From NCBI RefSeq assembly GCF_947500255.1, contig NZ_CANMRL010000002.1, positions 496,001 to 560,000 on the forward strand: a stretch of 64,000 bases of DNA, read 5' to 3'. The stretch's first letter is position 1, and each line of letters opens with the position of its first letter. Positions 1 through 15,994 of this stretch are shown one piece after another. A program made the translations under genes and the position numbers. The notes under the pieces were generated by a model. That model worked only from the letters and a program-made list of their open reading frames with translations, was not told where the DNA came from and did not search any database. The DNA is from an uncultured Psychroserpens sp. GTDB lineage: Bacteria; Bacteroidota; Bacteroidia; Flavobacteriales; Flavobacteriaceae.

Positions 1-2598
1 TCTGAAGCAAGACGTAAAGCCTATAAAGCAGATATTACCTACGGAACAAACAACGAATTTGGTTTCGATTACCTAAGAGATAATATGGCACATTCGCCAG
101 GAGATTTGGTACAGCGTCCACATCACTATGCGATTGTTGATGAGGTCGATTCTGTATTGGTCGATGATGCACGTACACCATTAATTATTTCTGGACCGAT
201 TCCACAAGGTGATCGTCACGAGTTTACAGAGCTTAAGCCAAAAGTCGATACGATTGTTAGTGCACAACGAAAAGAGCTTGTTGGCGTATTAGCTGAAGCT
301 AAAAAATTAATTGCAGAAGGTGATACCAAAGAAGGTGGGTTTTTATTATTGAGAGCCTACAGAGGTATTCCTAAAAATAAAGCTTTAATTAAATTCTTAA
401 GTGAAGAAGGGATTAAGGCCTTACTCCAAAAAACAGAGAATTTCTATATGCAAGATAACAACAGAGAAATGCCTAAAGTTGATGCAGAGCTCTACTACGT
501 TATCGAAGAAAAAAATAATCAGGTGGAGTTAACCGATAAAGGTGTTGAATTCTTATCTGGTAAAGAAAATCCAGACTTCTTCGTCATGCCAGAAATTGGT
601 ATGGAGATCTCAAAGATTGAAAGCAAAGGCTTATCTAAAGAAGAGGAAGCTGCCGAAAAAGAAGAGTTGTTTAGAGACTTCGGAATTAAATCGGAACGTA
701 TCCATACACTCAACCAATTATTAAAAGCATACGCTTTATTTGAAAAGGACATCCAATATGTGGTGATGGACAATAAGGTGATGATCGTTGATGAGCAAAC
801 GGGTCGTATTATGGATGGTCGTCGTTATAGTGACGGACTCCACCAAGCGATTGAAGCGAAAGAAAATGTAAAGATCGAAGATGCAACGCAAACCTTTGCT
901 ACAGTAACTTTACAAAACTACTTTAGAATGTATCGTAAGCTATCTGGTATGACAGGTACTGCGGTAACAGAAGCTGGTGAATTCTGGGAAATCTATAAAT
1001 TGGATGTGGTGGAAATTCCAACCAACCGACCAATTGCACGTGATGACCGTCAGGATTTAGTTTACAAAACAAAACGTGAAAAATACAATGCTGTTATCGA
1101 TGAGGTTACCAACTTATCTCAAGCAGGACGACCAGTATTGATTGGTACAACAAACGTTGAAATTTCCGAGCTTTTAGGAAAGATGTTATCGATTAGAAAA
1201 GTACCGCATAATGTACTTAACGCGAAACTCCATAAAAAAGAAGCCGATATTGTTGCCGAAGCTGGACAACCAGGACAGGTAACTATCGCAACCAACATGG
1301 CAGGTCGTGGTACCGATATTAAATTATCAGACGCCGTAAAAGAAGCAGGTGGTTTGGCCATCGTCGGTACAGAGCGTCATGATTCACGTCGTGTCGATCG
1401 CCAGTTACGTGGTCGTGCAGGACGTCAAGGAGATCCAGGAAGTTCACAGTTTTATGTGTCTTTAGAAGATAACCTCATGCGTTTATTTGGTAGTGAGCGT
1501 ATTGCCAAAATGATGGATAAAATGGGATTAAAGGAAGGTGAAGTGATTCAGCATTCTATGATCTCAAAATCGATTGAGCGTGCACAGAAAAAAGTAGAAG
1601 AAAACCAATTTGGTGTTCGTAAGCGTCTCTTAGAATATGATGATGTGATGAATGCACAGCGTGAAGTGGTGTACAAACGTCGTCGTCATGCCCTACATGG
1701 TGAGCGTCTTCGTGTAGACTTAGCAAATATGATCTACGATACCTCTGAAGGGATTGCAGAAAATAATAAAGCAGCTGAAGACTTCAAGAATTTCGAGTTT
1801 GAATTGATTAGATACTTCTCGATGAGCTCGCCTATTTCCGAAGCAGATTTTAAAAAGTTATCGGTTCAGGATATTGCTGGAAAAGTCTATAAATCTGCCT
1901 TTGAGCATTACAGAGAAAAAATGCAACGTAACGCCGAGTTGGCATTCCCAGTGATTGAGAATGTGTACTTGAATCAACGTGATAAATACAAGCGTATCGT
2001 GGTACCGTTTACCGATGGTGTGAAGAACTTACAAGTGGTAACAGACCTTGAAAAGGCTTATGAAACCAAAGGCACACAGTTAATCAACGATTTTGAAAAG
2101 AACATTACTTTGGCGATTGTTGATGATGCTTGGAAAACACATTTACGTAAAATGGATGAGTTAAAGCAGTCGGTACAATTAGCGGTTCACGAGCAAAAAG
2201 ATCCGTTATTAATCTATAAGTTTGAAGCTTTTGAGTTGTTCAAGGAAATGATTGACCAGGTGAATAAGGATGTAATCTCGTTCTTATTTAAAGGCGAATT
2301 ACCTTCGGAAACACAAAATAACATCCAGGAAGCAAAAGCACGTAAGCAAGAGAAGCTTGAAACGCAAAAGGACGAAATCCCTAATATGGATGAACGTGCT
2401 GCACAAAGTAGAGCTGCTGGTGCTGGTGCATCTCGCCAACAGCAACAAGTGGTTGAAACTATTGTTAGAGAGCAACCAAAAATTGGTCGTAATGATAAAG
2501 TTACGATTAAGCATGTGATGAGTGGCGAAAATAAAACGGTCAAGTATAAACAAGCCATTCCCTTAATAGCTAAAGGTGAATGGGTCTTAGTCGAGTAG
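1..2598 (+). CDS. secA: SecA preprotein translocase ATPase (5' truncated)
   Basis: This is the motor ATPase that drives unfolded preproteins through SecYEG at the inner membrane. The frame is open from the first base, so the gene starts before the window; 865 residues are visible and about the N-terminal quarter is missing. Visible landmarks, in order: [10 protein letters not shown] of nucleotide-binding domain 1, the Walker B-like [11 protein letters not shown] (about 139-171), the [10 protein letters not shown] motif and the [13 protein letters not shown] arginine-finger region (about 1400-1440), then the helical scaffold with [13 protein letters not shown]. The C-terminus ends in a short basic/aliphatic tail and has no CxC zinc motif, unlike E. 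coli SecA; I believe this is usual in Bacteroidetes. An internal ATG at position 85 is not the real start. A terminator follows at 2721-2748. Confidence 0.97.
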
Positions 2599-2720: not shown

Positions 2721-2748
2721 ATCCCGAGTATAACACTCGGGATTTTTT
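2721..2748 (+). terminator. Rho-independent terminator of secA
   Basis: A perfect 9-bp stem, ATCCCGAGT / ACTCGGGAT, has a 5-base loop and is followed by a run of T on the plus strand. It lies about 120 bases after the secA stop codon and separates secA from the accessory gene that follows. Confidence 0.85.
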
Positions 2749-2756
2749 ATTTGAAA

Positions 2757-2776
2757 TATACGTAGAACTACGTATA
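2757..2776. promoter_or_regulatory. Perfect palindrome upstream of the ROCO gene (putative operator)
   Basis: TATACGTAGAACTACGTATA is a 9+2+9 perfect inverted repeat. It ends 103 bases before the ROCO-TIR start codon. The identical 20-mer occurs only once more in the window, at 15080-15099, also in front of an accessory operon. A dimeric DNA-binding protein is the natural reader, but none is encoded next to it. Confidence 0.55.
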
Positions 2777-2879
2777 AATTGTACAGCTTATTGTTATAGC
2801 TTTATAAGCTATAAAATGGAACTTAATTTTTGTTTTTGGGAAGTATATTACCAAAAATAGGAACTTTTGTCTTCATATA

Positions 2880-5800
2880 ATGAGTTGGCAACAAGCGCTC
2901 ATAGAAGACAAGAAACAAATCAAAAAAAGACAAGGAATCATATTTACTATGAATAAATTTAAATGTAATCTTTATGTCCTTGGTAGTCCAGGAGTTGGAA
3001 AGACTTTTCTAATAAAGATTATTGAGGAATTCACTCAAATTAACAATCAATTAAAAAAAGATATACAGAAAGAGACTGATTGGATTATTAGAACAAAAAC
3101 TGATGAAATCAATGTAGAAATCAAAGAAAAAAGAAATATTGATTTAGTTGCGAAAGAACTAAATGATAAAAAAGTAAAAAACTTTATTATTTACATAGTT
3201 GAAGCTAAAAAAAATGGTTTAAATCCTGTAATAAATAGTAATCATATTGAGCAATTAAAAATTCTTTCGAAGAAATCAAAAATAATTGTTGGGTATCATT
3301 TTGGATTTGATCATTTTGATAGGAAAGTCAGTCATAGTCCTATAAAAAAATATTTTCCTTTTGTTGAGTATTTTCTACCTATTAATGGTTTGAATTTTCG
3401 TGAATATGAAGGATTATATCAATTAGGTCCTGTTCTAAGACAAATTATTATTAATTCTCTTTCAAATTCGCTTGAATATGCAAAAGGACTTATAAAATCA
3501 AATTTTGAAACAAAAGAGTTAACCTTGGATTTAGGGAACTGTGGCTTGACAAGTTTAAATGATATAAAAGAGTTATTTAATAATACACATCTAAAAACTT
3601 TGATTCTAAGCAACGAATGGGGAGAATACCTGAATGGAGCTTGGGTGAGAAAAACTAGCAATAATAAATTAGATTCAAATGTATTATTCAGTTTTCCATC
3701 AGAATTAAAATACTTAAAAAATCTAGAAGTCCTTATTTCGGGAGGAAATTGGAAAAATTCTTATAGAAGTAAAAGGTCTTTTATCTCAAATTGGAGTATT
3801 ACTGATATCAAACCATTATCTAATTTAAGAAAACTCTCAATCTTAAACATTAGTAATAACGAGATTAATGCAGTATCACCATTATCAAGATTATCCAATT
3901 TAACTAAACTGTACTTAAATAACAATTGCATAAGTCGTTTCTCAACTATTAATAAATTCCCAAATTTAAATGAGCTCTATTTAAGTAACAATAAAATAAA
4001 AAGTCTTATTTTTCTATCTTCTGAGTCGAACATTCAAACCATTGATTTGCACTCAAATCAGATAACTGACCTTTCTCCGATTAAAAATTTAATCTCAAGA
4101 ATTGATATTAAAGATTCAAGATGGGAGAACAACACAATTAGTATTGCAAGCAACCCTTTATCAATACCGCCAGCTGAAATAGTTGCAAAAGGTAAAAAAA
4201 GCGTGATGACATATTTTTCAAAGCTCGAATCTGAAAAAGAAATTCAGATTGAACCTTATATAAATGGAGACATTAAGCTCATAATGGTTGGTAATAGCAA
4301 TGTAGGTAAATCGACTTATGTTAATTGGTTAAAAACTGAAAAAGTAAATAAAAAAATAGCAACTACTGATTGGCTAGATTTTGGAATCTGGAAAGCACAA
4401 AAAAACTCTAAAAGCTACAATGTTAGAATTTTTGATTTCGGAGGACAGGAATATTACCATGACACTCATCATCTTTTTTTTACTAACAGAACTGCATATA
4501 TACTTTTATGGGAAAGTTCTTCTAATTATTTTGATGAATTAGAAATAAACCAACTCCAAAGTGATGGAAATAAAAAGAAAGTAAAAATTGAAACTTTTCC
4601 CATTGAATATTGGCTTGATTCAATCAGATATCATACACAAAAAAGAAAATTAACCCAAGTTGAAAAATCAATAACAAAAATTCTAGATGAGCGAGATCAG
4701 CAAATTGAAGAATCAGTTTTAAGTAATACAGAATGGACTAAACACGTCTTAGAATCTACTAACAAGTTATCTAAACCCATTGAAGATGAAGAGAATATAT
4801 TGGTGCTTCAAAATAAAGCAGATTCAAAAGAACTAAAATCATTTCTAAACGAGGCATCTATTAGAATTAATTATCCGAAAATATATGACTTCGATCAAGT
4901 TTCAGTATACAATAATAAAAGACTTGATCTATCAAAAGATATGTTATTTGATATTTTTGATAGTCTGGACGTTTTAAATCGACAGTATCTTGGAACTTGG
5001 AATTATATTAAACAGGATATTGAAAAAAGGGAATTTAAGAATCACTTTTCGATGGACGATTTTCTTAAATATTGTAATTCAATAATTGAAAAAATCCCTG
5101 AATTAAAAGGAAAGTCACAAAAACAGAAAAACACGATAATTTTCAATAAAGAAGATGCCCTAGTTTTTGCAAACTTTTTAGCAGATATAGGATTATGCCT
5201 CTATTATCCTGAAAGTAAAACCTTGAATAAAAAAGTGTTTTTGAATCAAAATCAAATACTTAAAGACTTGAATCAAGTACTTCTAAAAATAAATAAATCT
5301 ACTGGAGAAATTAAAAAATCTGAAATTATAAGTGCTTTAGGAAAAAACGAGTCAAGTAGTGAAGTTTCAGATTTAATTAATTTAATGCTTCATTTTAAAA
5401 TTCTTTTTAAGCATCCACTGGAATTAAAAAAATCTTTTGTTGCCCCACTTTATTTACCACAAAACCCACCTCAAAGTATAAGAATATTTAATTCACTTTT
5501 TAAAAGACCTGTTTATCGCTTTCAATATGAAACCTTTATTCATAAAAGTGTTATTCTTGATTTCTTTGCTGCTTACGGATCAAAAGCATTTAGCGAAACA
5601 AATGATGACTCCTTGTTTTATTTTTGGAGAAATGGTATTGTTATTAAGGATGAAAGCACCAATGAAATTGTGATGGTTAAGTTTATTCCTGGAAATAATA
5701 AAAGTAAATCCGCTTATCTAGATATTTATGCTGTAAATAATACTGATGACAAATTCATAAAAACAATTGTAGATTATATTGACTCAATAAATCAAGGTAT

Positions 5801-6506
5801 AAAAGTTAAAAAGCTAGTGCCAGTTGAAAATTCAACGGAATATATTCCATTGGAGACAATATATCAAAACGAAAAAAACAACAACTTAGTCTTTTACTAC
5901 GACAAGAAAATTTACCGATTAACGGAATTTAAAAAACATTTAAACACTCCAATGAAAATGAAAAAAATATTCATATCATATTCCAAACAAGATCTTCGAT
6001 TAGTGAATAAATTTATTGAGCATCTTTCTGCATTGAAAAGGGATGGCAAAGTTTCTCATTGGTATTGTAGCGAATTAGAAGCTGGATCTGTCTGGAGTGA
6101 TGAAATTCAAAAAAACCTAATGGAATCAGATATAATATGTTTTATGATTAGTCCAAACTTTATGAAAACAGATTATATTCATGAGCACGAAATAAAAAAA
6201 GCTTTTGAAAGAAAAGAAGAAGATCCAAGCTTTAAAATTGTACCAATTATTTTGAATTTTTGTCGATGGACAACTACTAAGAACAACTTAGGCTCTTTCA
6301 CAGGTCTACCCTACACTGCAAAACCAGTAATGGATTTTGATAACCAAGATATGGCATGGTATATAGTGGAGGAGTGTCTTCGTCTCATGATTGAGGATGA
6401 TCTTAATCCAATTGGAGATGATTTTTACAATGATAAGTTACCTGGAGATGTTTTGAAATTATATACGAGAATTATTGAGGGTAAAGTTGATAAAAATACC
6501 GATTAA
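2880..6506 (+). CDS. LRR-Roc-COR-TIR (ROCO family) signalling protein
   Basis: This 1208-residue multidomain protein is a putative intracellular sensor/effector. An N-terminal region has its own P-loop-like GSPGVGKT (residues 35-42). Internalin-type leucine-rich repeats follow (about 210-430). Next is a Roc GTPase with Walker A GNSNVGKST (471-479), DFGGQE (519-524) and NKAD (645-648), then a COR-like region. The protein ends in a TIR domain from about 1025 (KKIFISYSKQD), with candidate NADase glutamates E1102/E1104 in YIHEHEIKKAF. TIR domains often cleave NAD+, and bacterial LRR/TIR proteins are often immune proteins, so an anti-phage role is plausible but inferred. There is no signal peptide, so it is cytosolic. 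The start is uncertain: Met24 (2949) is an alternative just before the P-loop. The gene is AT-richer than secA and stands alone, suggesting horizontal acquisition. Confidence 0.88.
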   Translation: MSWQQALIEDKKQIKKRQGIIFTMNKFKCNLYVLGSPGVGKTFLIKIIEEFTQINNQLKKDIQKETDWIIRTKTDEINVEIKEKRNIDLVAKELNDKKVKNFIIYIVEAKKNGLNPVINSNHIEQLKILSKKSKIIVGYHFGFDHFDRKVSHSPIKKYFPFVEYFLPINGLNFREYEGLYQLGPVLRQIIINSLSNSLEYAKGLIKSNFETKELTLDLGNCGLTSLNDIKELFNNTHLKTLILSNEWGEYLNGAWVRKTSNNKLDSNVLFSFPSELKYLKNLEVLISGGNWKNSYRSKRSFISNWSITDIKPLSNLRKLSILNISNNEINAVSPLSRLSNLTKLYLNNNCISRFSTINKFPNLNELYLSNNKIKSLIFLSSESNIQTIDLHSNQITDLSPIKNLISRIDIKDSRWENNTISIASNPLSIPPAEIVAKGKKSVMTYFSKLESEKEIQIEPYINGDIKLIMVGNSNVGKSTYVNWLKTEKVNKKIATTDWLDFGIWKAQKNSKSYNVRIFDFGGQEYYHDTHHLFFTNRTAYILLWESSSNYFDELEINQLQSDGNKKKVKIETFPIEYWLDSIRYHTQKRKLTQVEKSITKILDERDQQIEESVLSNTEWTKHVLESTNKLSKPIEDEENILVLQNKADSKELKSFLNEASIRINYPKIYDFDQVSVYNNKRLDLSKDMLFDIFDSLDVLNRQYLGTWNYIKQDIEKREFKNHFSMDDFLKYCNSIIEKIPELKGKSQKQKNTIIFNKEDALVFANFLADIGLCLYYPESKTLNKKVFLNQNQILKDLNQVLLKINKSTGEIKKSEIISALGKNESSSEVSDLINLMLHFKILFKHPLELKKSFVAPLYLPQNPPQSIRIFNSLFKRPVYRFQYETFIHKSVILDFFAAYGSKAFSETNDDSLFYFWRNGIVIKDESTNEIVMVKFIPGNNKSKSAYLDIYAVNNTDDKFIKTIVDYIDSINQGIKVKKLVPVENSTEYIPLETIYQNEKNNNLVFYYDKKIYRLTEFKKHLNTPMKMKKIFISYSKQDLRLVNKFIEHLSALKRDGKVSHWYCSELEAGSVWSDEIQKNLMESDIICFMISPNFMKTDYIHEHEIKKAFERKEEDPSFKIVPIILNFCRWTTTKNNLGSFTGLPYTAKPVMDFDNQDMAWYIVEECLRLMIEDDLNPIGDDFYNDKLPGDVLKLYTRIIEGKVDKNTD

Positions 6507-6523
6507 TTATTAATGAAAAAATT

Positions 6524-6660
6524 CCAGCTGGTAACAATGAGTATAGTTAATAGTTACAGATGGCTAAGACGACAATCTTTGTGTCCTTTTTACTATATTA
6601 TATTGCGGAAAATAAGGCGTGTACTTTTCCGTAACAAATCATACACGAACACGTTAGACA
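6524..6660. repeat. Interspersed repeat, copy A (degenerate)
   Basis: The left edge, AACAATGAGTATAGTTAA, resembles the clearer left end at 10171. The right edge at 6636-6660 (AAATCATACACGAACACGTT followed by AGACA) matches the right end of copy B at 7563-7587, with two internal mismatches before the ends diverge. The left and right edges share an inverted CGTGTAT / ATACACG core. The element lies between two unrelated genes. Confidence 0.45.
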
Positions 6661-6677
6661 TAATTTAAATTTCACCT

Positions 6678-7445
6678 ATGAAAAAAACACTTTTAATAAT
6701 AACAATTGCTTTTTTTGCTATTTCTTGTCAATCAGAGTCGGAATTTAATAAAAAAGGGAAATTCTATAAAGGAATCGATGGTGAATTAGAATTATACTTG
6801 ACATTTATTAATGACACAATAGTCGCCATCAATTCAGATAGTTTAAAAATTTGCAGATGGAATTTTATGAAATTCAAGAATAGCTCTAACGGACTTTTTA
6901 AAACCAACGAATTAAAGACCGATACAACATGGTTTAAATCGAAAAACAAATATGTTGAATTGTATTTTGAAAATCAAAAAATAGAATTTAAAGAAACTGA
7001 AATACCAAAAAGCCATATTGAAAAAACAAAAAGAGAATTGGAATTCGTTCGTAAGTTTTCTGATAAGGGAATAACCTTTGAATGCGATTATAGCATAAAG
7101 CAAATTGGATATTTCTATGAGGAAGCAATTAAAGAAGTTAAAGATAATCTTAAGAATCCAAACACGGCAAAATTCAATGAGACATATATTCATAAATACA
7201 AAATGTTTAATGATGAAAATGAATACGTAAAAAGTAAAACTACTCTTGTGTCTTTGGAAATAGAGGCGAAAAATGGTTTTGGCAACTTTACAGAAGACAA
7301 GTATTATGTCTTTTTCACACCAATGGAAAAGGATGAATCAAAATACGATGTAAAGTTTAGTGATTCACCAATTTTAGAATATGATATAACAGAACGATAT
7401 AAAGAAATCATAGATGAATTAGGAGAATTAGAACTAGAAGAATAA
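6678..7445 (+). CDS. Orphan lipoprotein, unknown function
   Basis: This is a 255-residue protein with a type II signal peptide: MKKTLLI, a hydrophobic stretch, then a lipobox ending at Cys17 (AISCQ). It is therefore predicted to be a lipid-anchored envelope protein. The C-terminal part contains VKDNLKNPNTAKF and later EAKNGFGNF, a pattern I have seen in small bacterial exported proteins of unknown function. I do not recognise a named family. It stands alone between two repeat copies, with no operon partner. The start is supported by the clean signal peptide directly at the first Met, 17 bases after the repeat edge. Confidence 0.75.
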   Translation: MKKTLLIITIAFFAISCQSESEFNKKGKFYKGIDGELELYLTFINDTIVAINSDSLKICRWNFMKFKNSSNGLFKTNELKTDTTWFKSKNKYVELYFENQKIEFKETEIPKSHIEKTKRELEFVRKFSDKGITFECDYSIKQIGYFYEEAIKEVKDNLKNPNTAKFNETYIHKYKMFNDENEYVKSKTTLVSLEIEAKNGFGNFTEDKYYVFFTPMEKDESKYDVKFSDSPILEYDITERYKEIIDELGELELEE

Positions 7446-7457
7446 AACTATGCCTGA

Positions 7458-7587
7458 GAGCATATATAATTAATTGCTTGGTTCTAGACCACTCGGAAAA
7501 CCCTACCGATTCCCCTCTGGTTCGTTTTCTTTTACTAACTTAGTTCTTAACCATACACAACGAAATCATATACGAACATGTTAGCAT
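7458..7587. repeat. Interspersed repeat, copy B
   Basis: This copy contains TAATTGCTTGGTTCTAG near the left edge, CCTCTGGTTCGTTTTCTTT at 7514-7532 (identical in copy C at 8182-8200), a leader block ACTAACTTAGTTCT at about 7534-7547 shared with 9290-9304 and 11101-11114, and a right edge at 7563-7587 shared with copy A. It overlaps the apparent upstream ATG (7578) of the next reading frame, which argues for the later start. Confidence 0.55.
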
Positions 7588-7601
7588 CAATTTGTAAAAA
7601 C

Positions 7602-8084
7602 ATGAGACATAGACAAATATTAACCGTTTTTTTATTGTTCACTACAATCAATTTGAGTGGGCAAGATTTATTCTTTATAGGTGAAAAAAGTTATCCATGT
7701 ACTGAAACAATAGTCCTAATTTCAAATAAAGAAGACTCAGATGACTTGAAAATTCTTTTTGCGAAAGATGATTCTTCCAAATATGTTGCAGTTTTCACAA
7801 AACCAAAATTGAATTCTGATTTCACTGGAAAATTAATTATCTATCTTGATGATGGAACAGTCATAGCATGTGAGAATTTAATCGAATCTGATTTTGTTGA
7901 TGATATTGCTAAGGCAGTTTTTGTTTTAAACGAAAAAGACTTGAGTAAGTTAAAAAAAAGCAATATAAATACTGTTAGATTTACGCTAAGGGTATTAGAT
8001 CTAAAAGATGTTAATCATTCAGCCTCAAATAAAAATTCCCATAAAACCGATTTTATGAAGATTATTAATGAATTCTTTGATTAA
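7602..8084 (+). CDS. Orphan exported protein, unknown function
   Basis: This is a 160-residue protein with a type I signal peptide (MRHRQILTVFLLFTTINLSG, cleavage near SGQ-D), so it is periplasmic or surface-exposed. I start it at 7602 rather than the in-frame ATG at 7578 because the earlier codons lie inside the intergenic repeat and would put a charged extension before the signal peptide. The mature part is mostly beta-rich, with a KKSNINTVRF segment; no family is recognised. It is flanked on both sides by repeat copies, so it behaves like a single-gene unit. The lysine-rich tail shows no membrane anchor. Confidence 0.65.
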   Translation: MRHRQILTVFLLFTTINLSGQDLFFIGEKSYPCTETIVLISNKEDSDDLKILFAKDDSSKYVAVFTKPKLNSDFTGKLIIYLDDGTVIACENLIESDFVDDIAKAVFVLNEKDLSKLKKSNINTVRFTLRVLDLKDVNHSASNKNSHKTDFMKIINEFFD

Positions 8085-8098
8085 AAAACAGGTGCCAT

Positions 8099-8200
8099 CA
8101 ACGTGTATTGTCAATTGCTGATTCTGTGAGTACTCAGACACGAGCGTAGCAAACTGGCGCTAGCAAAATCCTACGGATTTTCCTCTGGTTCGTTTTCTTT
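8099..8200. repeat. Interspersed repeat, copy C
   Basis: Bases 8099-8158 align without gaps to 10173-10232 with 49 of 60 identical positions, including the exact 19-mer ACGAGCGTAGCAAACTGGC (8140-8158). Bases 8182-8200 are identical to 7514-7532 in copy B. It starts 15 bases after the stop of the upstream gene. Confidence 0.7.
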
Positions 8201-8283
8201 CTTTAAATTTAATGAATCAAAGAACAACTAACGCTTTGAGGTTAGTATTTCGTTTTTATGTAATCATTTAAGTATCTAAATCT

Positions 8284-8721
8284 ATGGACAAATTATTAGA
8301 GATTGACTTTTCACTCGTTCTTGCAACTGTTGCACTTATCATTTCCTTTATTTCATTCAAAAAGACGAAAGACTATAATTCTGCTAGTTTCTTTATGGAG
8401 TTAATAAGAGAATTCAGAAGCCCAGAATTTGTTGATCATCGTCTTTATGTGAAAAATCAGTTGTCCCAAGAAAATATAACTGTGCTTTCAAAAACTGGAC
8501 ATCATCATGTGATGCAACTCTGCCATTACTTTGATACCTTGGCGTTATTGGTTAACAATAAATTGATTAAAAAAAATATTGTAAAAAAGTTCTTGGGAAA
8601 AAGCATATACGAATACTGGGTTATTGTAGAACCTTATATAAAAGATCAGAGAGAAAAAAGAAACTTCCCAGACTATCAAGAAGAATTTGAGAAGCTAGCG
8701 TTAAGTTGCAAAAACTCTTAA
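8284..8721 (+). CDS. Small membrane-anchored protein, unknown (DUF4760-like)
   Basis: This is a 145-residue protein. The N-terminal 30 residues form one hydrophobic segment (FSLVLATVALIISFISF) followed by KKTKDYNSASFFMELIREFRSPEF. This layout, a single helix leading into a cytoplasmic helical domain, resembles small bacterial proteins grouped under DUF4760, but I cannot confirm the match. A HHHVMQLCHYFDTLALLVN stretch and a charged C-terminal helix follow. No catalytic motif is visible. It is another single gene in the repeat-separated stretch, with no co-directional neighbour closer than about 200 bases. Confidence 0.6.
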   Translation: MDKLLEIDFSLVLATVALIISFISFKKTKDYNSASFFMELIREFRSPEFVDHRLYVKNQLSQENITVLSKTGHHHVMQLCHYFDTLALLVNNKLIKKNIVKKFLGKSIYEYWVIVEPYIKDQREKRNFPDYQEEFEKLALSCKNS

Positions 8722-8795
8722 AAGAACAGATTTCTAATATCTCAACACTCTAATATTATCCTATTTATCATTCACCCATTATCAAACAATACAAC

Positions 8796-9182
8796 CTAAT
8801 TCTGCATCCTATAAACCACATAAGGCGCTATCGTGGTCCAAATCAGAACAAAGATCCAGACACGACCTTCGAGAATATTATAATCATTAAACAATTTGCT
8901 CCAAGAGTGACCTGCCACATAGTGTCCAAATAAAAACTCAAAAACAACAGTGCAGCCTAACCAAAAGACACCTAGTTGTAATGCCTCCTTAGCAGATTCT
9001 AGTTTTAAAAAACGCAGGAGGATCCAAACATAGATTCCAAATAAAACAATTAACGTCACTGTAGATAATTGATGTGCGACCAATTCTTTAAAACGACTTG
9101 CTAAAACTTTTTCACGAAACAATCCGTTTAAAATGGCAATGAATACCATAGGAATCCAAGCGAGTAGATATTTCCACATCAT
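8796..9182 (-). CDS. Small integral membrane protein, unknown
   Basis: This 128-residue protein has four predicted membrane helices (near residues 4-20, 42-62, 70-90 and 108-122) linked by short loops, including GHYVAGHSWSKLFNDYNILEGR between helices 3 and 4. I think similar proteins of this length occur in other Flavobacteriaceae, but I know of no assigned function. It is the only minus-strand gene in the stretch 2.9-13.3 kb. The start MMWKYLLAW fits an N-terminal helix; the second Met works equally well. Confidence 0.65.
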   Translation of the reverse strand: MMWKYLLAWIPMVFIAILNGLFREKVLASRFKELVAHQLSTVTLIVLFGIYVWILLRFLKLESAKEALQLGVFWLGCTVVFEFLFGHYVAGHSWSKLFNDYNILEGRVWIFVLIWTTIAPYVVYRMQN

Positions 9183-9273
9183 TGATAGAGTTGTATTATT
9201 ATACTAATTTACGACAAGCTATATTATAATTCATAGTTCAAATATCTTTTTAGAAAATCATGTGAGCTTCCCA

Positions 9274-9304
9274 ACATTTCAGTTTTATTTGTTAACTTAG
9301 TTCT
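9274..9304 (+). repeat. Leader block of the interspersed repeat, copy D (right part only)
   Basis: The 31-base block from ACATTTC to TTAGTTCT matches 11084-11114 at 25 of 31 positions and contains TAACTTAG, which resembles the Bacteroidetes -7 element TAnnTTTG. It ends 32 bases before the next start codon and may carry the promoter of that gene. Confidence 0.45.
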
Positions 9305-9336
9305 AACCAGCAATTAAGCACACACAAACACCTAAT

Positions 9337-10158
9337 ATGAATAAACTATACACACTTCTCATTTCCATATGCTTTTGTAGTCTATACACTTTTGGACAAA
9401 ACGAGGTTGAAAATTGGGAATCCTATATAGCATCATACGAAGAAAACAAACCTGGATCGACTACAGTTAGGATGGACATTTTCGATCAAACACCCTTACC
9501 AGAATATCCTTATGTATTGGTAACTGGAATAACATACGAAAGTAAAAGAGAAGACGGATTTCCCGAAGATGAAACCTTTCGATTATTACACAAGATTGGA
9601 GATGAACTTATTACATTAATCAATGAGAATTCTGAACATATATGTGTTGGCTCATTCATGTTTAATTACGAACGCCTCGAATACTTTTATCTTAAGAGCA
9701 GCAACGGAATTGAAAATAAACTAAAGGAATTCTATACATCAAACTACCCAAACTATGACTATTATATAAATCTTAAGGAAGACAAAAACTGGACTTATTA
9801 TAGAGAGTTTCTTTATCCAAATGAAGAAATCATCGAATATCTTGGAGATCAAAGTGTAGTTGAGACTCTAATAGAAGCTGGAGATAATTTGAGTAAAGCC
9901 AGACGTGTTGATCATTGGGCATACTTTGACGATGAATCAAAAATGGAATCCTTTAAAAAAGAAATTAAAAAATTGAAGTTTAAGGTTGAAAACTCTACAA
10001 AAATTGAGAATGAATCCAAACCATATGTCATCCGTTTTTATAGAACAGACAAAGTTGACCTTAATTCTATTTACACCATTACGTCCTCGCTAAGAAAATT
10101 AGCCATATCCTACGACGGTGATTACGACGGATGGGAAACTTCGGTTGAAAAAGAATAG
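9337..10158 (+). CDS. Orphan exported protein, unknown function
   Basis: This is a 273-residue protein with a clear type I signal peptide (MNKLYTLLISICFCSLYTFG, cleavage before QNEVENW). The mature region opens with ENWESYIASYEENKPGSTTVRMD and is acidic and aromatic-rich. It repeatedly shows RxD and DDES segments, reminiscent of the DUF695-type proteins of Bacteroidetes (ENWESY...YEENKPGS), but I treat this as tentative. The first about 110 residues and the last about 90 may be two related halves (VLVTGITYESKREDGFPEDE versus VIRFYRTDKVDLNSI), which is only an impression. It is a single gene between repeat copies. Confidence 0.65.
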   Translation: MNKLYTLLISICFCSLYTFGQNEVENWESYIASYEENKPGSTTVRMDIFDQTPLPEYPYVLVTGITYESKREDGFPEDETFRLLHKIGDELITLINENSEHICVGSFMFNYERLEYFYLKSSNGIENKLKEFYTSNYPNYDYYINLKEDKNWTYYREFLYPNEEIIEYLGDQSVVETLIEAGDNLSKARRVDHWAYFDDESKMESFKKEIKKLKFKVENSTKIENESKPYVIRFYRTDKVDLNSIYTITSSLRKLAISYDGDYDGWETSVEKE

Positions 10159-10170
10159 CTAAAAACATAT

Positions 10171-10232
10171 AACAACGTGTATAACTAATTGCTAGTTCTA
10201 TGCATACTCGGAAACGAGCGTAGCAAACTGGC
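10171..10232. repeat. Interspersed repeat, copy E (left part)
   Basis: This is the best-preserved left end: AACAACGTGTATAACTAA starts 12 bases after the upstream stop codon. Bases 10173-10232 match copy C (8099-8158) at 49 of 60 positions without gaps. The right-hand part seems lost, as the next gene's signal peptide starts 52 bases further on. Confidence 0.7.
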
Positions 10233-10284
10233 AAAGCAAATTATCAACGGAATGATATTTGATGCAACTCAGGAAACTCACATC

Positions 10285-11064
10285 ATGAAAAAAATTATCA
10301 TTCTTCTACTCTTGAGCTTGAGCTTCAACTCAGCCATTGCAGACTGTACATCCAACGGCATGTATTTCTTTCCCGAAACTAGGGAGATTAGCTTAAATTC
10401 AATGTTTATTATTCAAGGCTATGCCTTTAGTCAAAAAACAATAAACAGTTTTAAAGAGCGTACTATTTATCTGGAAAGTGAACATGGAGAGTTAATTGAG
10501 CTTCACCTCCAAGATATCTTAAAAGGGCAAATGCAATTAACACAAGCTATTTTTTGTCCTGTTTCCGAATTAAAACCCAATACAACCTACGTGCTTAAAT
10601 ACACAGACCAAACCAATAGTGAAGGCGCAGAAATGTCTAAATACAATCGTAAAAAAAAGAAAAGAGAAAAAGTCTATTGGACGACGACTGGCGATACATC
10701 AAGTACTCCACTCCATTCTAACCTAACACTTGAATTTAAAAATTCTGAAGTTGCTTATTATGGTTGCGGACCATCAGCACACGCGGTCTTCAAAATTAAG
10801 CATATGCCAGAATCTGAAGTTTGGTTTAAAACAGAAGTGGTTGAAGTGAGCACTAATACAAGCACGACATTTTACTTAATAGGAAGAGAAGACCAACTCT
10901 ATATTGGACACGGCATGTGTTCTGGAGCGTTTCGATTTAATGGAAAAGGCAAGTATAAAGTGAGGTTTACACCAATGAACATAGATGGGAAATCGCTAAC
11001 AACAACAGCATGGAAAACATTTGAAAGTCCGTTCGCGACTGCTAAAAATCCGTATGGGAATTAA
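10285..11064 (+). CDS. Orphan exported protein, unknown function
   Basis: This is a 259-residue protein with an ideal type I signal peptide (MKKIIILLLLSLSFNSAIA, cleavage before DCTS). The frame is open upstream to 10189, but those codons lie in repeat copy E and lack a signal sequence, so I start at 10285. The mature part begins DCTSNGMYFFPETREISLNSMFIIQGY, followed by a KYNRKKKKREKVYW linker and a C-terminal beta-rich part with YYGCGPSAHAVFKIKHMPESEVWFKTEVVE. The paired cysteines (GCGPS, GMCSG) may form a disulfide after export. No family is recognised. Confidence 0.68.
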   Translation: MKKIIILLLLSLSFNSAIADCTSNGMYFFPETREISLNSMFIIQGYAFSQKTINSFKERTIYLESEHGELIELHLQDILKGQMQLTQAIFCPVSELKPNTTYVLKYTDQTNSEGAEMSKYNRKKKKREKVYWTTTGDTSSTPLHSNLTLEFKNSEVAYYGCGPSAHAVFKIKHMPESEVWFKTEVVEVSTNTSTTFYLIGREDQLYIGHGMCSGAFRFNGKGKYKVRFTPMNIDGKSLTTTAWKTFESPFATAKNPYGN

Positions 11065-11083
11065 AACCCTTATGCATTTTCCT

Positions 11084-11114
11084 ACATTGTGGTTTTATTT
11101 ACTAATTTAGTTCT
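11084..11114 (+). repeat. Leader block of the interspersed repeat, copy F
   Basis: This 31-base block matches 9274-9304 at 25 of 31 positions and ends 17 bases before the next start codon. It contains TAATTTAG, a near match to the -7 element, in the same position as TAACTTAG in copies B and D. Confidence 0.45.
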
Positions 11115-11131
11115 GGTCAACACATCTAACA

Positions 11132-11623
11132 ATGAGATTACTGAATTTCTTTAAAAAAGATCCCAATATGCTGGTTAAAATGGTGGTGCTTTATGTGAGT
11201 TCCGAATTGAACTCGATCTTAATCGCTCCGCAATATGTTGATGAATCTTGGATACGATATGAACAAGAGGATATTGAGCAATTAGACTTTGACTGCACAG
11301 ATGAAAGCTTGGGTGAAGCGATCAAAAGAAATTTCGACAAGTTTGCGGTAAAAAACATGCCAAATACAAAAAGAACGACTAAAGACTGGCCTGCATATCA
11401 AGCCAGTAAATTAAAGACCGAGACGGAATTTGAACACCACTATTTCAAGATTTCCATTAATGGCGCTAACGACGCAAATATCATCATGGTGTTTGAAGCC
11501 GATATGAAATCGAAGCATGATATTAATGTGACTAGTTCTGTCTCTGCTCATGCTGAAAACCACAAACTAGGAAGACTCGTCAAACAATTACACGACATTC
11601 AAATTAACCGAACCATAGAATAA
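11132..11623 (+). CDS. Small cytoplasmic protein, unknown function
   Basis: This 163-residue protein has no signal peptide or membrane helix. It starts MRLLNFFKKDPNMLVKMVVLYVSSELNSILIAPQ and is acidic in the first half (EQEDIEQLDFDCTDESLGEAIKRNF). A central KRTTKDWPAYQASK and a C-terminal FKISINGANDANIIMVFEAD strand region suggest a small alpha/beta fold. Size and composition would suit an immunity-type protein, but there is no toxin partner in the neighbourhood, so I make no functional call. It is preceded by leader block F. Confidence 0.6.
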   Translation: MRLLNFFKKDPNMLVKMVVLYVSSELNSILIAPQYVDESWIRYEQEDIEQLDFDCTDESLGEAIKRNFDKFAVKNMPNTKRTTKDWPAYQASKLKTETEFEHHYFKISINGANDANIIMVFEADMKSKHDINVTSSVSAHAENHKLGRLVKQLHDIQINRTIE

Positions 11624-11677
11624 AAGTTAACCCATTTACATAAATTTAAATACAAACCAATCAAAAATCAATCGCAC

Positions 11678-12178
11678 ATGACACGAAAAATTACAGCTCT
11701 TTTTTTAGCAAGCATCATTTTATTTACAACCAGCTGCGCTAGTATTGTTAGTAAATCAAAGTATCCTATTTCCATTGACAGTTCTCCTTCGGGAGCAAAA
11801 ATTACGATTACGGATAAAAAAGGTAACGACGTCTACACTGGTAATACACCTGCAACCTTAAAATTAAAAGCAGGGAACGGTTATTTTTCTAAGGCCAGAT
11901 ATGAGGTGAAATTTGAAAAAGAAGGCTATGATGTTAAAATTGTTCCTGTTGAGTTCAAACTCGACGGTTGGTATTTTGGTAACATTCTTATTGGTGGATT
12001 GTTAGGAATGCTCATCATTGATCCAGCATCTGGAGCCATGTACAAGTTGGATACAGAATTCTTAAATGAAACGCTCACCCAATCTACTGCTAGCGTTGAG
12101 AAGGACGGATTAAAAGTGTATGCGCTTACCGATATTCCAAGTGAATGGAAAGCACATTTGGTGGCTTTAGATAAATAA
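11678..12178 (+). CDS. PEGA-domain lipoprotein
   Basis: This is a 166-residue lipoprotein with a type II signal peptide and lipobox TTSCA (Cys20). After CASIVSKSKYPISIDSSPSGAKITITDKKGNDVYTGNTPATLKLKAG comes the typical PEGA-like segment (SxPxGAxVxI..., G.TP..L.L..G), followed by YEVKFEKEGYDVK. A hydrophobic glycine-rich stretch (FGNILIGGLLGMLIIDPASGAMYKL) follows, as is common in lipoproteins of this group. PEGA domains are usually surface or cell-wall-associated beta folds; the precise role is unknown. It is a single gene whose neighbours are unrelated. Confidence 0.75.
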   Translation: MTRKITALFLASIILFTTSCASIVSKSKYPISIDSSPSGAKITITDKKGNDVYTGNTPATLKLKAGNGYFSKARYEVKFEKEGYDVKIVPVEFKLDGWYFGNILIGGLLGMLIIDPASGAMYKLDTEFLNETLTQSTASVEKDGLKVYALTDIPSEWKAHLVALDK

Positions 12179-12272
12179 ATCAAAAAGTTCAAACATCGCT
12201 TCAAAATAAAATTTTGGTCGACTAGCACTTATACAGTATCTTGAAAAGATTAATCAAAACACTTCTTCAATC

Positions 12273-12725
12273 ATGGACGATATTAATTGGCTTTCAATGA
12301 TTTTGGCGACACTAATGCCACTACTCATCGGATTTCTCTATTACCACAAAAATGTATTTGGTAATGTATGGATGGATTCGGTAGGTATGACCGAGAATCA
12401 AGCAAAAAAACCAAATGCGATAGTGACACTTATCGTCGCTATTGTGCTGTCTTTTTTTCTATCCTTTTTTCTTTTGAATTTTAATAACTCTGGTATTAAT
12501 CAGGAAGGTGATTTTGACACCTTTGCGCATGGTGCTTGGCATGGAACTTTTATTGCCATTACAACCGTTGCCCCTGTTATTGTAGTCCAAGGTTTTTTCG
12601 GACGCAGAAAATGGAAACATATGCTTATTAATATTCTCTATTGGATTATTACGCTTGTACTGATGGGCGGAATTTTGGATAGCATGAATCATTGGCAAAA
12701 CATTCCAATGCCAGATGGATTTTAG
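12273..12725 (+). CDS. DUF1761-family membrane protein
   Basis: This 150-residue protein has four membrane helices. The N-terminal MDDINWLSMILATLMPLLIGFLYYHK followed by GNVWMDSVGMTENQAKK matches the usual DUF1761 pattern (W...G..YY...FG..W....G). The remaining helices (VTLIVAIVLSFFLSFFLLNF, TFIAITTVAPVIVVQGFF, LINILYWIITLVLMGGILDSM) also fit. The function of the family is not known. Length and topology are normal for the family. It is separated by 34 bases from the following lipoprotein gene and may be co-transcribed with it. Confidence 0.78.
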   Translation: MDDINWLSMILATLMPLLIGFLYYHKNVFGNVWMDSVGMTENQAKKPNAIVTLIVAIVLSFFLSFFLLNFNNSGINQEGDFDTFAHGAWHGTFIAITTVAPVIVVQGFFGRRKWKHMLINILYWIITLVLMGGILDSMNHWQNIPMPDGF

Positions 12726-12759
12726 CGGAAGGAAAAACGCATACCAATAGCATATAATT

Positions 12760-13320
12760 ATGAAAAAAATACTAGTCGTAATATTTATCTCCATAGGTTT
12801 ACTATCGTGCTCAAAGACCGAAAATGAAGTGTTGAGTAGTGACATAGAGACATTTATTAAAGCTAATAATGAAAATGATTTTGAGACTTTGGTAGACTAT
12901 TATCCAGAATTCTTTTTTGACTCTATCTCTAAAAGCGAAGTCTTGGTCGAACTTAAAAAGTTTTATTCGGAAGACACAAAGAACAAAATGGTGTTGGATT
13001 CTGATTTTAAAATTGATACTATAATTTACAAGAACTCACGACATTATGCTCGTATCCAAAGCGGTCAAACCATAACTATGGATTTGACGGAATTTGAAGA
13101 TGAAAATGGAATGGATTATGCAGTTTCAATGGCCTATAATCTTTTTGTTAGTCAGTATGGTAAAGATAACGTGACATACAATAAAGGCGAATGGATATTT
13201 CATATTCGGTCTGAAAAACCACTCTATGGGATGAAAAATGAACATGACAATTGGAAATTTATAGAATCAAATCAAGACACGGGAAAACATATTCCGATTG
13301 AAATCATAACCTCCCAGTAA
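12760..13320 (+). CDS. Orphan lipoprotein, unknown function
   Basis: This is a 186-residue lipoprotein: MKKILVVIFISIGLLSCSK gives a short signal with lipobox LLSC (Cys17). The mature part opens with SSDIETFIKANNENDFETLVDYYPEFFF, which resembles the start of small NTF2-like or DUF4878-type domains where a helix plus ND(F)xxLVDYYP precedes a curved sheet. I regard that as a hint only. The C-terminus ends in a polar tail. The gene converges on the hydrolase gene at 13374, and a strong bidirectional terminator lies between them. Confidence 0.72.
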   Translation: MKKILVVIFISIGLLSCSKTENEVLSSDIETFIKANNENDFETLVDYYPEFFFDSISKSEVLVELKKFYSEDTKNKMVLDSDFKIDTIIYKNSRHYARIQSGQTITMDLTEFEDENGMDYAVSMAYNLFVSQYGKDNVTYNKGEWIFHIRSEKPLYGMKNEHDNWKFIESNQDTGKHIPIEIITSQ

Positions 13321-13331
13321 TTATAAACTAA

Positions 13332-13359
13332 AAAGCCTGATAGAAATTTATCAGGCTTT
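13332..13359. terminator. Bidirectional terminator
   Basis: A perfect 11-bp stem AAAGCCTGATA / TATCAGGCTTT with a 6-base loop sits in the 53 bases between two convergent stop codons. The A and T flanks give U-rich tails in both directions. Confidence 0.85.
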
Positions 13360-13373
13360 GGTTTTACTTATTT

Positions 13374-14342
13374 TTACTTTAAATTCTTCCTTAAGAATTT
13401 AGAAATATAGTTGGCAATTTCATCACCTTTCTCCTCCAAAGCAAAATGCCCAGTATCTAATAAATGAAACTCCACATTTTTCAAGTCTCTCTTATAAGGA
13501 TAAGCACCTTCAGCCGGAAAAATAATATCATTCTTTCCCCAAACAATTAATGTTGGTGGTTGGTGTTTTCTAAATAGCTTTTGCCACTTTGGGTATGAGC
13601 TTACATTAGTACGATAGTCATAAAACATGGCTAATTGAATTTCATTATTCTCTGGTCTACTGAGGTGTTGCAAATCAATATGCCAATTATCAGGACTCAC
13701 TTTAGAGATATCTTGCACGCCATGAGTATACTGCCATTTTAGACCTTCTAATGAATGAAACCCTTCTAATGCCTTTCCATTAGCTATAGTATAATCATTC
13801 CAATAGGTTCTTAAAGGATTCCAAAACTCTGTTAGTCCTTCTTTATAGGCATTCCCATTTTGTACAATAAAAGCTTCAACGCGCTCAGGATGCCTTTCAA
13901 AGATTCTGTATCCTATAGGAGCACCATAATCCATTAAATATAAACTATAAGTATCAACTTTAAGTTTCCCTAAAAATTTTTCTATAATGATAGACATATT
14001 TTCAAAAGTATAGTCAAAATCTTTCATTGCAGGTTGTGAACTTCTACCATATCCAGGGTAATCTGGTGCAATTAAATGATACTCTGATGACAGATCTTTC
14101 ATTAAATTACGGAACATGTGAGATGATGTTGGATAGCCATGTAGTAAGACTAAAGTAGGTGCATTTTTAGGGCCAGCTTCTCGATAAAAAATATCCAAAC
14201 CATCAACTTTCACAGTATTATAGCTGGTAGGATAGGTTTTCTTTGAATGGGTCTCTTTGTGTGATTGACCTTGAACTAAGATTGTACTTAGGGTCAAAAT
14301 AAAAATCATTGCATAAGTTTTCATTGTTTTCATTGTATTCAT
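13374..14342 (-). CDS. Exported alpha/beta hydrolase, epoxide hydrolase / haloalkane dehalogenase-like
   Basis: This 322-residue protein has a signal peptide (FILTLSTILVQG, then Q). The oxyanion motif HGYP is at 68-71, with DYPGYGRS after it. The nucleophile position in LMDYGAPIG is Asp138, not Ser, which points to epoxide hydrolase or dehalogenase chemistry through an ester on Asp. The acid Asp272 (GKNDIIF) and base His299 (DTGHF) complete the triad. The substrate is unknown. The start is ambiguous because the codons for Met1, Met4 and Met7 lie in a small repeat (MNTMKTMKT); a start at Met4 or Met7 gives a more typical signal peptide. A TetR-type operator lies 28 bases upstream of Met1, so the gene is likely controlled by the adjacent regulator. 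Confidence 0.85.
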   Translation of the reverse strand: MNTMKTMKTYAMIFILTLSTILVQGQSHKETHSKKTYPTSYNTVKVDGLDIFYREAGPKNAPTLVLLHGYPTSSHMFRNLMKDLSSEYHLIAPDYPGYGRSSQPAMKDFDYTFENMSIIIEKFLGKLKVDTYSLYLMDYGAPIGYRIFERHPERVEAFIVQNGNAYKEGLTEFWNPLRTYWNDYTIANGKALEGFHSLEGLKWQYTHGVQDISKVSPDNWHIDLQHLSRPENNEIQLAMFYDYRTNVSSYPKWQKLFRKHQPPTLIVWGKNDIIFPAEGAYPYKRDLKNVEFHLLDTGHFALEEKGDEIANYISKFLRKNLK

Positions 14343-14370
14343 TGTTTTTAGTAATTGTGATTATATTTAA

Positions 14371-14388
14371 TTACCGAACATTCGGTAA
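14371..14388. promoter_or_regulatory. TetR-type operator upstream of the hydrolase
   Basis: TTACCGAACATTCGGTAA is a perfect 8+2+8 inverted repeat located 28 bases before the hydrolase start. A matching copy (15 of 18 bases) lies 27 bases before the regulator's own start. The core ACCGAACnTTCGGT is typical of operators of AcrR/TetR regulators. Confidence 0.8.
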
Positions 14389-14407
14389 AATTTATATTTA
14401 AATTTTT

Positions 14408-14965
14408 TTAATGATATCTGTTTCTAATGTTATCTAGGATATTCATAAAAGGTTGTGTTGATCCAATCGATTTAGACATTACAAGACTACCTTGAATATC
14501 AATAAATGTTTGATTTGCTTTTTGTGTGGCTTCTTTTTTACTCATGCCTTTGTCCACACCAAAACTTATAAAACCATTGATCCAAAGATCTATCCCTTGT
14601 TTTATTTGATCTCCAAACAAAGAAATTCCAGAATCAAGGGAAAGTGATCGATACATACAAGTTTCAAGACCTCCATTATACATATCATTTATACTAGAAA
14701 GCACTGTATCAAGTCGTTCGCTATGTGATATATTCTCATCCACAAGTACTTTATAAATACTTCGTTTTACCATACTTTCCAAGTACGCAAGAACCGCAGA
14801 GGCCATATCTTTCTTTCCTCCTTCAAATCTATGATAAAGACTTGCTTTTTTTAATCCTGTAGCTTCAGATAACTCTTTAAGACTAGCACCATCATAACCT
14901 TTAGATCTCATAACAGACATTAGTCCGTTTAACATTTGTTCATCTTGTACTTTTTGTGGTCTCAT
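14408..14965 (-). CDS. TetR/AcrR-family transcriptional repressor
   Basis: This is a 185-residue regulator. The N-terminal helix-turn-helix (residues about 10-50) contains SLKELSEATGLKKASLYHRFEGGKKDM, the standard TetR recognition region (LY.HF.gK). The C-terminal helical domain has the pattern LETCMYRSLSLDSG...AFIDIQGSLV seen in LmrA/YxaF-like members, which would bind an unknown small ligand. It is encoded directly upstream of the hydrolase in the same direction with 65 bases between them, and both genes have the same operator at almost equal distance from their starts. It is therefore probably autoregulated and represses the hydrolase. Confidence 0.92.
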   Translation of the reverse strand: MRPQKVQDEQMLNGLMSVMRSKGYDGASLKELSEATGLKKASLYHRFEGGKKDMASAVLAYLESMVKRSIYKVLVDENISHSERLDTVLSSINDMYNGGLETCMYRSLSLDSGISLFGDQIKQGIDLWINGFISFGVDKGMSKKEATQKANQTFIDIQGSLVMSKSIGSTQPFMNILDNIRNRYH

Positions 14966-14992
14966 AGTGCAAATGTAAAATTATTTAATATT

Positions 14993-15010
14993 TTACCAAA
15001 CGTTCGGTTA
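14993..15010. promoter_or_regulatory. TetR-type operator upstream of the regulator
   Basis: TTACCAAACGTTCGGTTA matches the operator at 14371-14388 at 15 of 18 positions and lies 27 bases before the regulator start. Mismatches break the palindrome, so binding may be weaker here, as expected for an autoregulated repressor. Confidence 0.72.
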
Positions 15011-15079
15011 TTATTTAACATTTTATTAACTAACTACAACAACTAATACCTTTACAAAACAGGTAGATATACTCTTCAA

Positions 15080-15099
15080 TATACGTAGAACTACGTATA
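15080..15099. promoter_or_regulatory. Perfect palindrome upstream of the three-gene operon (putative operator)
   Basis: This is the same 20-base sequence as 2757-2776 (TATACGTAGAACTACGTATA), here ending 76 bases before the first gene of the unknown operon. The flanking bases differ between the two sites, so the shared part is restricted to the palindrome, as expected for a protein-binding site rather than a duplicated segment. Confidence 0.55.
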
Positions 15100-15175
15100 G
15101 GATATATATCTAAAATCCTCTATTTTTATTTTGTTAAATTAGAGCTCTTCTGAGAATAAAATCTAGTTCATCTTA

Positions 15176-15994
15176 ATGAAAAACTATACTATTACCGTTG
15201 ATAAAAAGCATTTAGAAGATACCTTGACGCATTGGTCAAGCCTTTCTAGTCATACCAAACAAATAGTTGAAAACATAAAAAATGAACATTTCTTAGAAGC
15301 GTCGGCAATGAACGATATACTTACTGAAATTGTCAATAACAAAGATGATTTAACATTACTAGAAAAAAAATTAACCGATTTTGTAAGAGCTAATTCACTT
15401 AGAAAAGGTGATGTTATAAAAAGAGATTGTCCAAATAAACTTGGTACAGTTATGCCTTTGAGTTCTTTCAAAAGACATTTGGATTCGTATTATCCAGATA
15501 GATTCATTACGTATACCATTGATGATTTCCTAACTGCATTGAAAGCAAATAAAATTAGAAGCAAGGATAAAGATCTAATGATCAAAGCTCCTAATAGGTC
15601 GATATGGTTTACTTGGAATGAAAATGAGTGTAGAGCAGATCCTTTTTCATTTATGGAAACAGAATTTGCAGAAGAAGCAAGACTTGCTCTCGGACTTGGC
15701 TACAATGACTATAAGACAACTAATTTTATAGCCTTTATTTTTAAAACAGATCTTAAAAAAACACTTTACAGGCCAACATTTGCAGATAGCGATTTGTCTG
15801 AATTTTTTCGTCCTACCGAATTAAAATTTAAAAATTATGGTAAAACTTATATTCTGAATGAGGGAAAATTCAGAACAAAAACCGTAGATTATAAAATTGA
15901 AAACGTATCGTATCTGCCTGAGGCTATAAATGTATCTCAGCTCTTCAAAATTGAAGATTTAGAATATGTTAAAATACTACATGCAATAAAATGA
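15176..15994 (+). CDS. Unknown protein, first gene of three-gene accessory operon
   Basis: This is a 272-residue soluble protein with no recognised family. The N-terminal about 90 residues are helical (MKNYTITVDKKHLEDTLTHW, then LTLLEKKLTDFVRANSL). The centre and C-terminus look alpha/beta, with KRDCPNKLG, SIWFTWNENECRADPF, ALGLGYNDYKTTNFIAFIFKTD and GKTYILNEGKFRTKTVDY. A folded enzyme-like domain is possible, but I cannot name a catalytic set. Its stop codon overlaps the start of the next gene by four bases (ATGA), implying translational coupling. The palindrome at 15080-15099 lies just upstream. Base composition is AT-rich compared with housekeeping neighbours. Confidence 0.7.
   Translation: MKNYTITVDKKHLEDTLTHWSSLSSHTKQIVENIKNEHFLEASAMNDILTEIVNNKDDLTLLEKKLTDFVRANSLRKGDVIKRDCPNKLGTVMPLSSFKRHLDSYYPDRFITYTIDDFLTALKANKIRSKDKDLMIKAPNRSIWFTWNENECRADPFSFMETEFAEEARLALGLGYNDYKTTNFIAFIFKTDLKKTLYRPTFADSDLSEFFRPTELKFKNYGKTYILNEGKFRTKTVDYKIENVSYLPEAINVSQLFKIEDLEYVKILHAIK

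Follow-up and report, generated by a model that had tools for sequence, protein, structure and literature searches.

What connects two accessory loci of an uncultured Psychroserpens sp. that are preceded by the same short inverted repeat? The window, the whole stretch of 64,000 nt analysed here (contig NZ_CANMRL010000002.1, positions 496,001 to 560,000), carries two forward-strand copies of the 20-mer TATACGTAGAACTACGTATA, at positions 2757-2776 (operator 1) and 15080-15099 (operator 2). A preliminary description of this DNA proposed that the 20-mer is a common operator through which one dimeric regulator controls both loci, and the sites, their spacing, their conservation and their linkage to a regulator gene support that proposal. 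The site is probably an activator operator of a conserved orphan LuxR/NarL-type response regulator of marine Flavobacteriaceae, which would drive a family of small RNA (sRNA) genes together with accessory genes, here called cargo. The regulator gene with its adjoining tandem sRNA-like units, the constant promoter spacing and the cargo exchange between species go beyond that description.

The two copies, whose positions were given correctly, are the only ones in the window at up to 3 mismatches, and shuffled sequence gave a mean of 0.02 matches (100 shuffles). The repeat had been called a perfect palindrome. That is ruled out, as 2 of the 20 positions break the symmetry: the reverse strand, TATACGTAGTTCTACGTATA, has 2 mismatches to it, 18 of 20 positions are symmetrical, and the arrangement is one of two perfect 9-base arms around AA. 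The 16-base core, TACGTAGAACTACGTA, occupies 2759-2774 in operator 1 and 15082-15097 in operator 2. From the end of operator 1 to the ATG at 2880 there are 103 bases, and from the end of operator 2 to the ATG at 15176 there are 76, as had been reported. Because the flanks of the two operators differ, a duplicated segment is rejected as the origin of the two copies, and the earlier view of a shared site stands.

A scan of the complete genome (4.0 Mb in 13 contigs), which the preliminary description had proposed, found the exact core 9 times, and variants with other centres, TACGTAAAGCTACGTA and TACGTAAAACTACGTA, once each. Four of the nine are clustered within 610 bases at C1:1452825-1453434; the remainder are the two window sites and single cores at C2:411324, C6:79784 and C7:196576. 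Further comparisons used a genus set of 23 genomes (Psychroserpens and near kin) and a family set of 299 genomes. The exact core is found in 22 of the 23 genus genomes, where the reversed control has no match, and in 30 of the 299 family genomes. The core arms with any 4-base centre occur at 149 places in the genus set, compared with 12 for the control. A fixed orientation of the central GAAC is ruled out, as the fitted direction gives GAAC at 42 of 65 sites and GTTC at 19.

The C1 operator cluster lies directly 3′ of a luxR gene (C1:1453431-1454063), which is outside the window. The predicted 211 aa product combines a receiver and a DNA-binding domain (Response_reg, 2.1e-26; GerE, 5.5e-15), as in the NarL/FixJ class, and its relatives in the PDB include DesR, VraR and NarL. 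The luxR product of Psychroserpens luteolus XSD401 is 100% identical to it. With no kinase gene among the scanned neighbours, its sequence identifies it as an orphan NarL/LuxR-type response regulator. In the genus set, 57 of the 100 exact sites are within 900 bases 3′ of luxR, operators adjoin the gene in 21 of 22 luxR-bearing genomes (the exception is G019), and an operator overlaps the luxR stop codon in 16 genomes. In the family set, a regulator match (E≤1e-30) is present in 29 of the 30 genomes with the exact core versus 114 of the 269 without it (p 2.5e-9, kinship ignored), and by our reading of the coordinates the site is within ∼500 bases 3′ of the regulator in 26 of those 30. All three cluster cores of locus L076 are altered identically to TACGTAAAGTTACGTA, which would fit a common reader. 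Within the genus set, G011 alone gave no regulator match at E≤1e-20, and the exact core is also absent from it. It retains a single TACGTAnnnnTACGTA site (3 in its own reversed control, and 3 to 12 in the other 22 genus genomes), which adjoins leftover sRNA units between aspartyl-protease-like and acyltransferase genes.

A LuxR- or TetR-like protein had been suggested as the reader, and the LuxR part of this suggestion is likely right. A different reader, for example the TetR protein encoded at 14408-14965, is quite improbable. That gene is divergent from the operon behind operator 2, with the operator between them, and the sites in genomes G062 and G218 have no adjoining luxR, both of which could suit another reader. 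However, the TetR protein has no tblastn match at E≤1e-10 in the 35 loci around genus sites (L113-L147), luxR flanks the sites in 21 of 22 genomes, and of the two sides of operator 2 only that of the operon has a -7 box, the TetR side having none.

Beyond the luxR clusters retrieved, 101 distinct TACGTAnnnnTACGTA sites were collected (47 genus, 54 family), among them a few clusters that are leftovers or stand at contig ends, such as L198, L207 and L228. None of the 101 lies inside an open reading frame (ORF) of at least 80 aa; sites inside genes, which the preliminary description had named as the sign of a common repeat, were thus not seen. Direction was set solely by the side with a start codon within 260 bases, which oriented 67 sites with a median distance from operator to start codon of 105 bases. 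This is the non-circular version of an earlier fitted orientation, which was circular and carries no weight here. A [TGC]AnnTT box is located 22-24 bases past the core in 52 of the 67 oriented sites, against 2 matches on the opposite side and 7.4% of random positions (binomial p ∼2e-45, kinship ignored). The -7 element of Flavobacterium johnsoniae has the consensus TAHHTTTG at -12 to -5 (PMC6847099), and this consensus was used to predict +1. In the window, the predicted -7 boxes are TAGCTTTA at 2797-2804, 22 bases past the core with +1 placed at 2809, and TATTTTTA at 15121-15128, 23 bases past the core with +1 placed at 15133, both on the forward strand. Overall, the core is centred near -43.5 and ends ∼36 bases before the predicted +1, at the place of the -33 element. 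A centre near -43.5 is a class II activator position. A dimer of the regulator would bind the 16-base core here, replacing a weak -33 element, and would help RNA polymerase to use the -7 box 22-24 bases further on. A site adjoining a promoter can also block polymerase, and the regulator might repress at its operators; we consider this unlikely, as the core occupies the -33 place at one fixed spacing, which is expected of an activator touching polymerase. In genome G008, three operators with near-identical promoters were found within 6 kb (L123:4184-9783), ahead of successive small secreted-type genes and resembling a tandem array.

The clusters 3′ of luxR consist of tandem units, each with an operator, a -7 box at the fixed spacing, a short body and a terminator-like hairpin. 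In 43 of the 66 cluster units, the sequence GCTATTAAT starts exactly at the predicted +1. Compensatory changes are seen in 13 of the 14 terminator pairs among 29 units, a subset of GGGA-hairpin type picked by eye. A covariance model built from these 29 units has a match at E≤0.01 in all 23 genus genomes, some of which supplied the model, and by coordinates the best match in each is at the luxR cluster or its remnant; weaker matches away from the clusters could be terminators matched by chance. Of 196 genomes of the order, 23 have a match at E≤0.001, most of them weak. Rfam searches at the gathering score returned only tRNAs in six loci of the own genome and the window, and at E≤1 only sub-threshold matches, besides one tRNA, in four other clusters. 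From their sequences, the units resemble sRNA genes without a family in Rfam, and the predicted sRNAs would be ∼60-75 nt with the 5′ end GCUAUUAAU. Pairing between sRNA bodies and cargo leaders gave no clear signal among 52 pairs from three genomes, where the most extreme z was -2.7.

Three further observations concern these units. An extra sRNA-like unit in two clusters (L067:4630-4897 and L070:4630-4897) is preceded by a different palindrome, AGGTAAATATACCT, for which a second regulator may be the reader. The last unit (L067, after 5222) is followed by a small ORF encoding a 36 aa hydrophobic protein, which is conserved in the Psychroserpens clusters viewed. In the own genome, an sRNA-like sequence is found 3′ of glutamine synthetase at L032:6900-7600, far from the variant operator of that locus.

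Taken together, the targets of the regulator would be the tandem sRNA genes 3′ of its own gene and single scattered promoters, each with different accessory cargo, and the two window loci would be two cargos of this regulon. On some signal the regulator would be phosphorylated and would most likely activate the sRNAs and the cargo together, with the transcribed sRNAs acting on targets of their own. Several points weigh against this. The variant sites of the own genome (L031 and L032) have no fitting -7 box, 34 of the 101 scattered sites could not be oriented by genes, and 15 of the 67 oriented sites have no box. In G062 and G218, sRNA units accompany an exact core but luxR is missing from that place (the regulator match of G218, 46% identical, is elsewhere), and in G080 and G122 the regulator is present but the one exact core is not linked to it. 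The joint absence of regulator and core in G011 points in the expected direction but is a single genome, and the whole case is built from comparison of sequences.

The proposed arrangement resembles the CiaRH system of streptococci, in which one response regulator serves several short terminator-ended sRNA genes, the csRNAs, as well as other promoters, and in which the sRNA genes were predicted from the regulator promoter and a terminator (PMC3091779). In the same way, several candidate sRNA genes with a -7 box, body and terminator are found here behind promoters with the regulator site. The regulon works like the CiaR regulon and is not classed as a member of it, being from another phylum, with a regulator that has a GerE domain and with cargo that differs strongly between species. 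CiaR is of another type than regulators of the GerE class. In GacA-RsmXYZ and LuxO-Qrr, a response regulator likewise feeds multicopy sRNAs, as proposed here; the difference is that the scattered operators found here head accessory protein genes. FopS of Bacteroides thetaiotaomicron, in the same phylum, is also a set of multicopy paralogous sRNAs, and is compared here by description; FopS is RbpB-bound and has canonical promoters with no known regulator, whereas the units described here carry an operator (PMC11697453). We recognised no description of the operator, the regulator or the sRNA family in the literature searched, which covered few subscription journals. The sRNA-like family would have a known position, a predicted start and a terminator in a phylum with few understood sRNAs.

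Different cargo is found at the same place in different genomes. Directly behind secA (85-2598, forward strand, Pfam SecA domains), where the operator follows at ∼160 bases, lies an LRR-Roc-COR-TIR gene in the own genome and a gene for a 170 aa protein in G019. The likeness between the window and G019 spans a terminator-like hairpin ahead of operator 1 (2721-2749, forward strand) into the operator and ends there. The likeness between the window and G005 covers the leader instead, and G005 has a third cargo ∼3 kb after secA. An 839 aa gene in locus L119 was ruled out as SecA, and because secA is ∼3 kb from the L119 operator, G005 is left out of the count of shared places. Behind the same 358 aa gene, L121 and L140 have a protein with six transmembrane segments and L122 a lipoprotein, and beside the same long ATPase gene the cargo of L133 differs from that of L145. 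L030 and L144 have an extra gene in between, and L134 and L146 have only the neighbourhood in common. As operator and promoter recur while the cargo differs between species, new effectors would therefore join an existing circuit.

A leader hairpin of 9 pairs follows many of the operators, with 90.6% of positions paired in 14 sequences that were picked for a common GATAT-like motif. Covariation gave 17 double-sided cells, where shuffles gave 5.5 and sliding no more than 6. The genus set holds 4 exact copies of the motif, each just after an operator (one of these operators has a mismatch); at up to 3 mismatches the motif occurs at 18 places, with a similar number for the reversed control. In four genera, this covarying hairpin directly follows the operator promoters of cargos that are unrelated to one another (e.g. 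L188:4107-4150 and L137:4012-4055, both on the forward strand). A mobile repeat or recombination site with no regulator might account for this leader common to unrelated cargos, and for the different cargo that the window and G019 carry immediately behind the operator. However, such an element would have no need of terminators, of a -7 box at a constant distance or of GCTATTAAT at the predicted +1, and, with the absence of scattered sites from ORFs also against it, this origin is the least credible of those considered.

The genes behind operators are mostly singletons, with few shared families in all-against-all BLAST. LRR-Roc-COR-TIR cargo was found by Pfam twice, in the window and in L120, the two being ∼31% identical in the longest segment. 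Other genus cargo with Pfam assignments includes TIR (L137), putative AbiC and AAA_13 (L118), AAA_15 with Toprim (L131), caspase (L129), DUF4231 (L114), WYL (L116), haem peroxidase (L133) and a metallo-beta-lactamase (L135; a protein in L194 is 27% identical), and domains in the family set are methylase, Mrr_cat, PLD, DUF4062, PHP and AAA. The cargo as a whole includes LRR-Roc-COR-TIR, TIR, OLD-like, AriAB-like and restriction-type genes, along with many unassigned lipoproteins.

The preliminary description suggested that these might be defence genes, and this part holds only for some of the cargo, which matches defence families; much of the rest is lipoproteins or membrane proteins without assignment. 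At E≤1e-5, PADLOC matches 8 of 41 genus cargo genes (window:2880, L116, L118:6997, L120, L131, L135, L137 and L145:1944) and 4 of 40 nearest genes on the other side, a weak enrichment. The 41 include some second and third genes; left out were three orthologues of the L030 protein, the genes of L032, a number of second genes, and sites where no ORF was clear. The 50 families found in one PADLOC scan are fully explained by those eight genes scanned singly. The four neighbour matches are two 943-960 aa ATPases of one locus, which we read as UvrA-like, a Mg-chelatase-type protein and one untraced mad2. Seven of 10 family-set proteins scanned singly (out of 40) match PADLOC, with PDC-M49A at 8e-291, AriAB at 1.1e-65, PDC-S37 at 2.5e-53, ATPase-Toprim_I-B at 1.5e-37 and the weakest at 2.3e-6; these 10 were picked for their defence-like look and have no control, so no rate of defence genes follows. 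Given 8 of 41 versus 4 of 40, the term defence regulon is only partly supported, and the hypothesis that the regulon serves phage defence has less than an even chance of being right.

The same regulator and operator could instead serve an envelope-stress or competition response, with the defence-like genes only part of the accessory set. This is a real possibility, if short of an even chance. Lipobox-like starts are found in 14 of 81 cargo genes versus 1 of 40 neighbours, many cargo proteins match nothing in Pfam or PADLOC, the PADLOC counts just given agree with it, and response regulators with sRNAs often answer envelope stress. Set against it are several strong matches to defence models among the cargo (such as PDC-M49A, PDC-S06 at 7e-71 and AriAB), with the pre-picking of the singly scanned family proteins to be kept in mind, and the two LRR-Roc-COR-TIR genes. 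Tentatively, and with somewhat less confidence, the activator operator may belong to a widespread alarm circuit of the Flavobacteriaceae, in which an orphan regulator with tandem sRNAs is kept and immune or competition effectors are swapped at operator-promoter modules in fixed places. If so, each species would run its own arsenal from one common switch, somewhat like the interferon regulon; how many unrelated bacterial defence or competition genes are coordinated is largely an open question. With one predicted regulator, operator and promoter spacing, the whole set of a species can be listed by pattern search.

In the window, cargo 1 (2880-6506, forward strand) predicts a 1208 aa protein with Pfam Roc, COR-A, COR-B, LRR_4 and TIR_2 domains, as in bacterial Roco proteins with TIR domains, a known protein class; what is new for it is the operator ahead of the gene. 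PADLOC matches the TIR part only (ThsB TIR-like, 1.9e-23; SAVED_TIR, 1.6e-6), with no match to a whole system. Relatives (E≤1e-40) occur in 3 other genomes of the 299 in the family set, none of which has the exact core or a regulator match (E≤1e-30), and the operator is therefore not a fixed part of the LRR-Roc-COR-TIR family. Cargo 2 is an operon of three forward-strand genes predicting proteins of 272 aa (15176-15994), 277 aa (15991-16824) and 749 aa (16831-19080). None of the three has a Pfam domain or matches a known PADLOC system at E≤0.001. No relatives of the 272 aa protein were found in the PDB, plasmids or viral contigs, and a search of 395 genomes of the order returned the 749 aa protein from the own genome alone, with no match to it in plasmids or viral contigs. 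The operator is the best present clue to the role of this operon, and a search for it flags effector candidates of this kind that are invisible to domain search. Curlin-repeat-like proteins, 29% identical to each other, were also seen near operators or operator-like sites in two species (L205:1917-3422 and L214:1530-3026).

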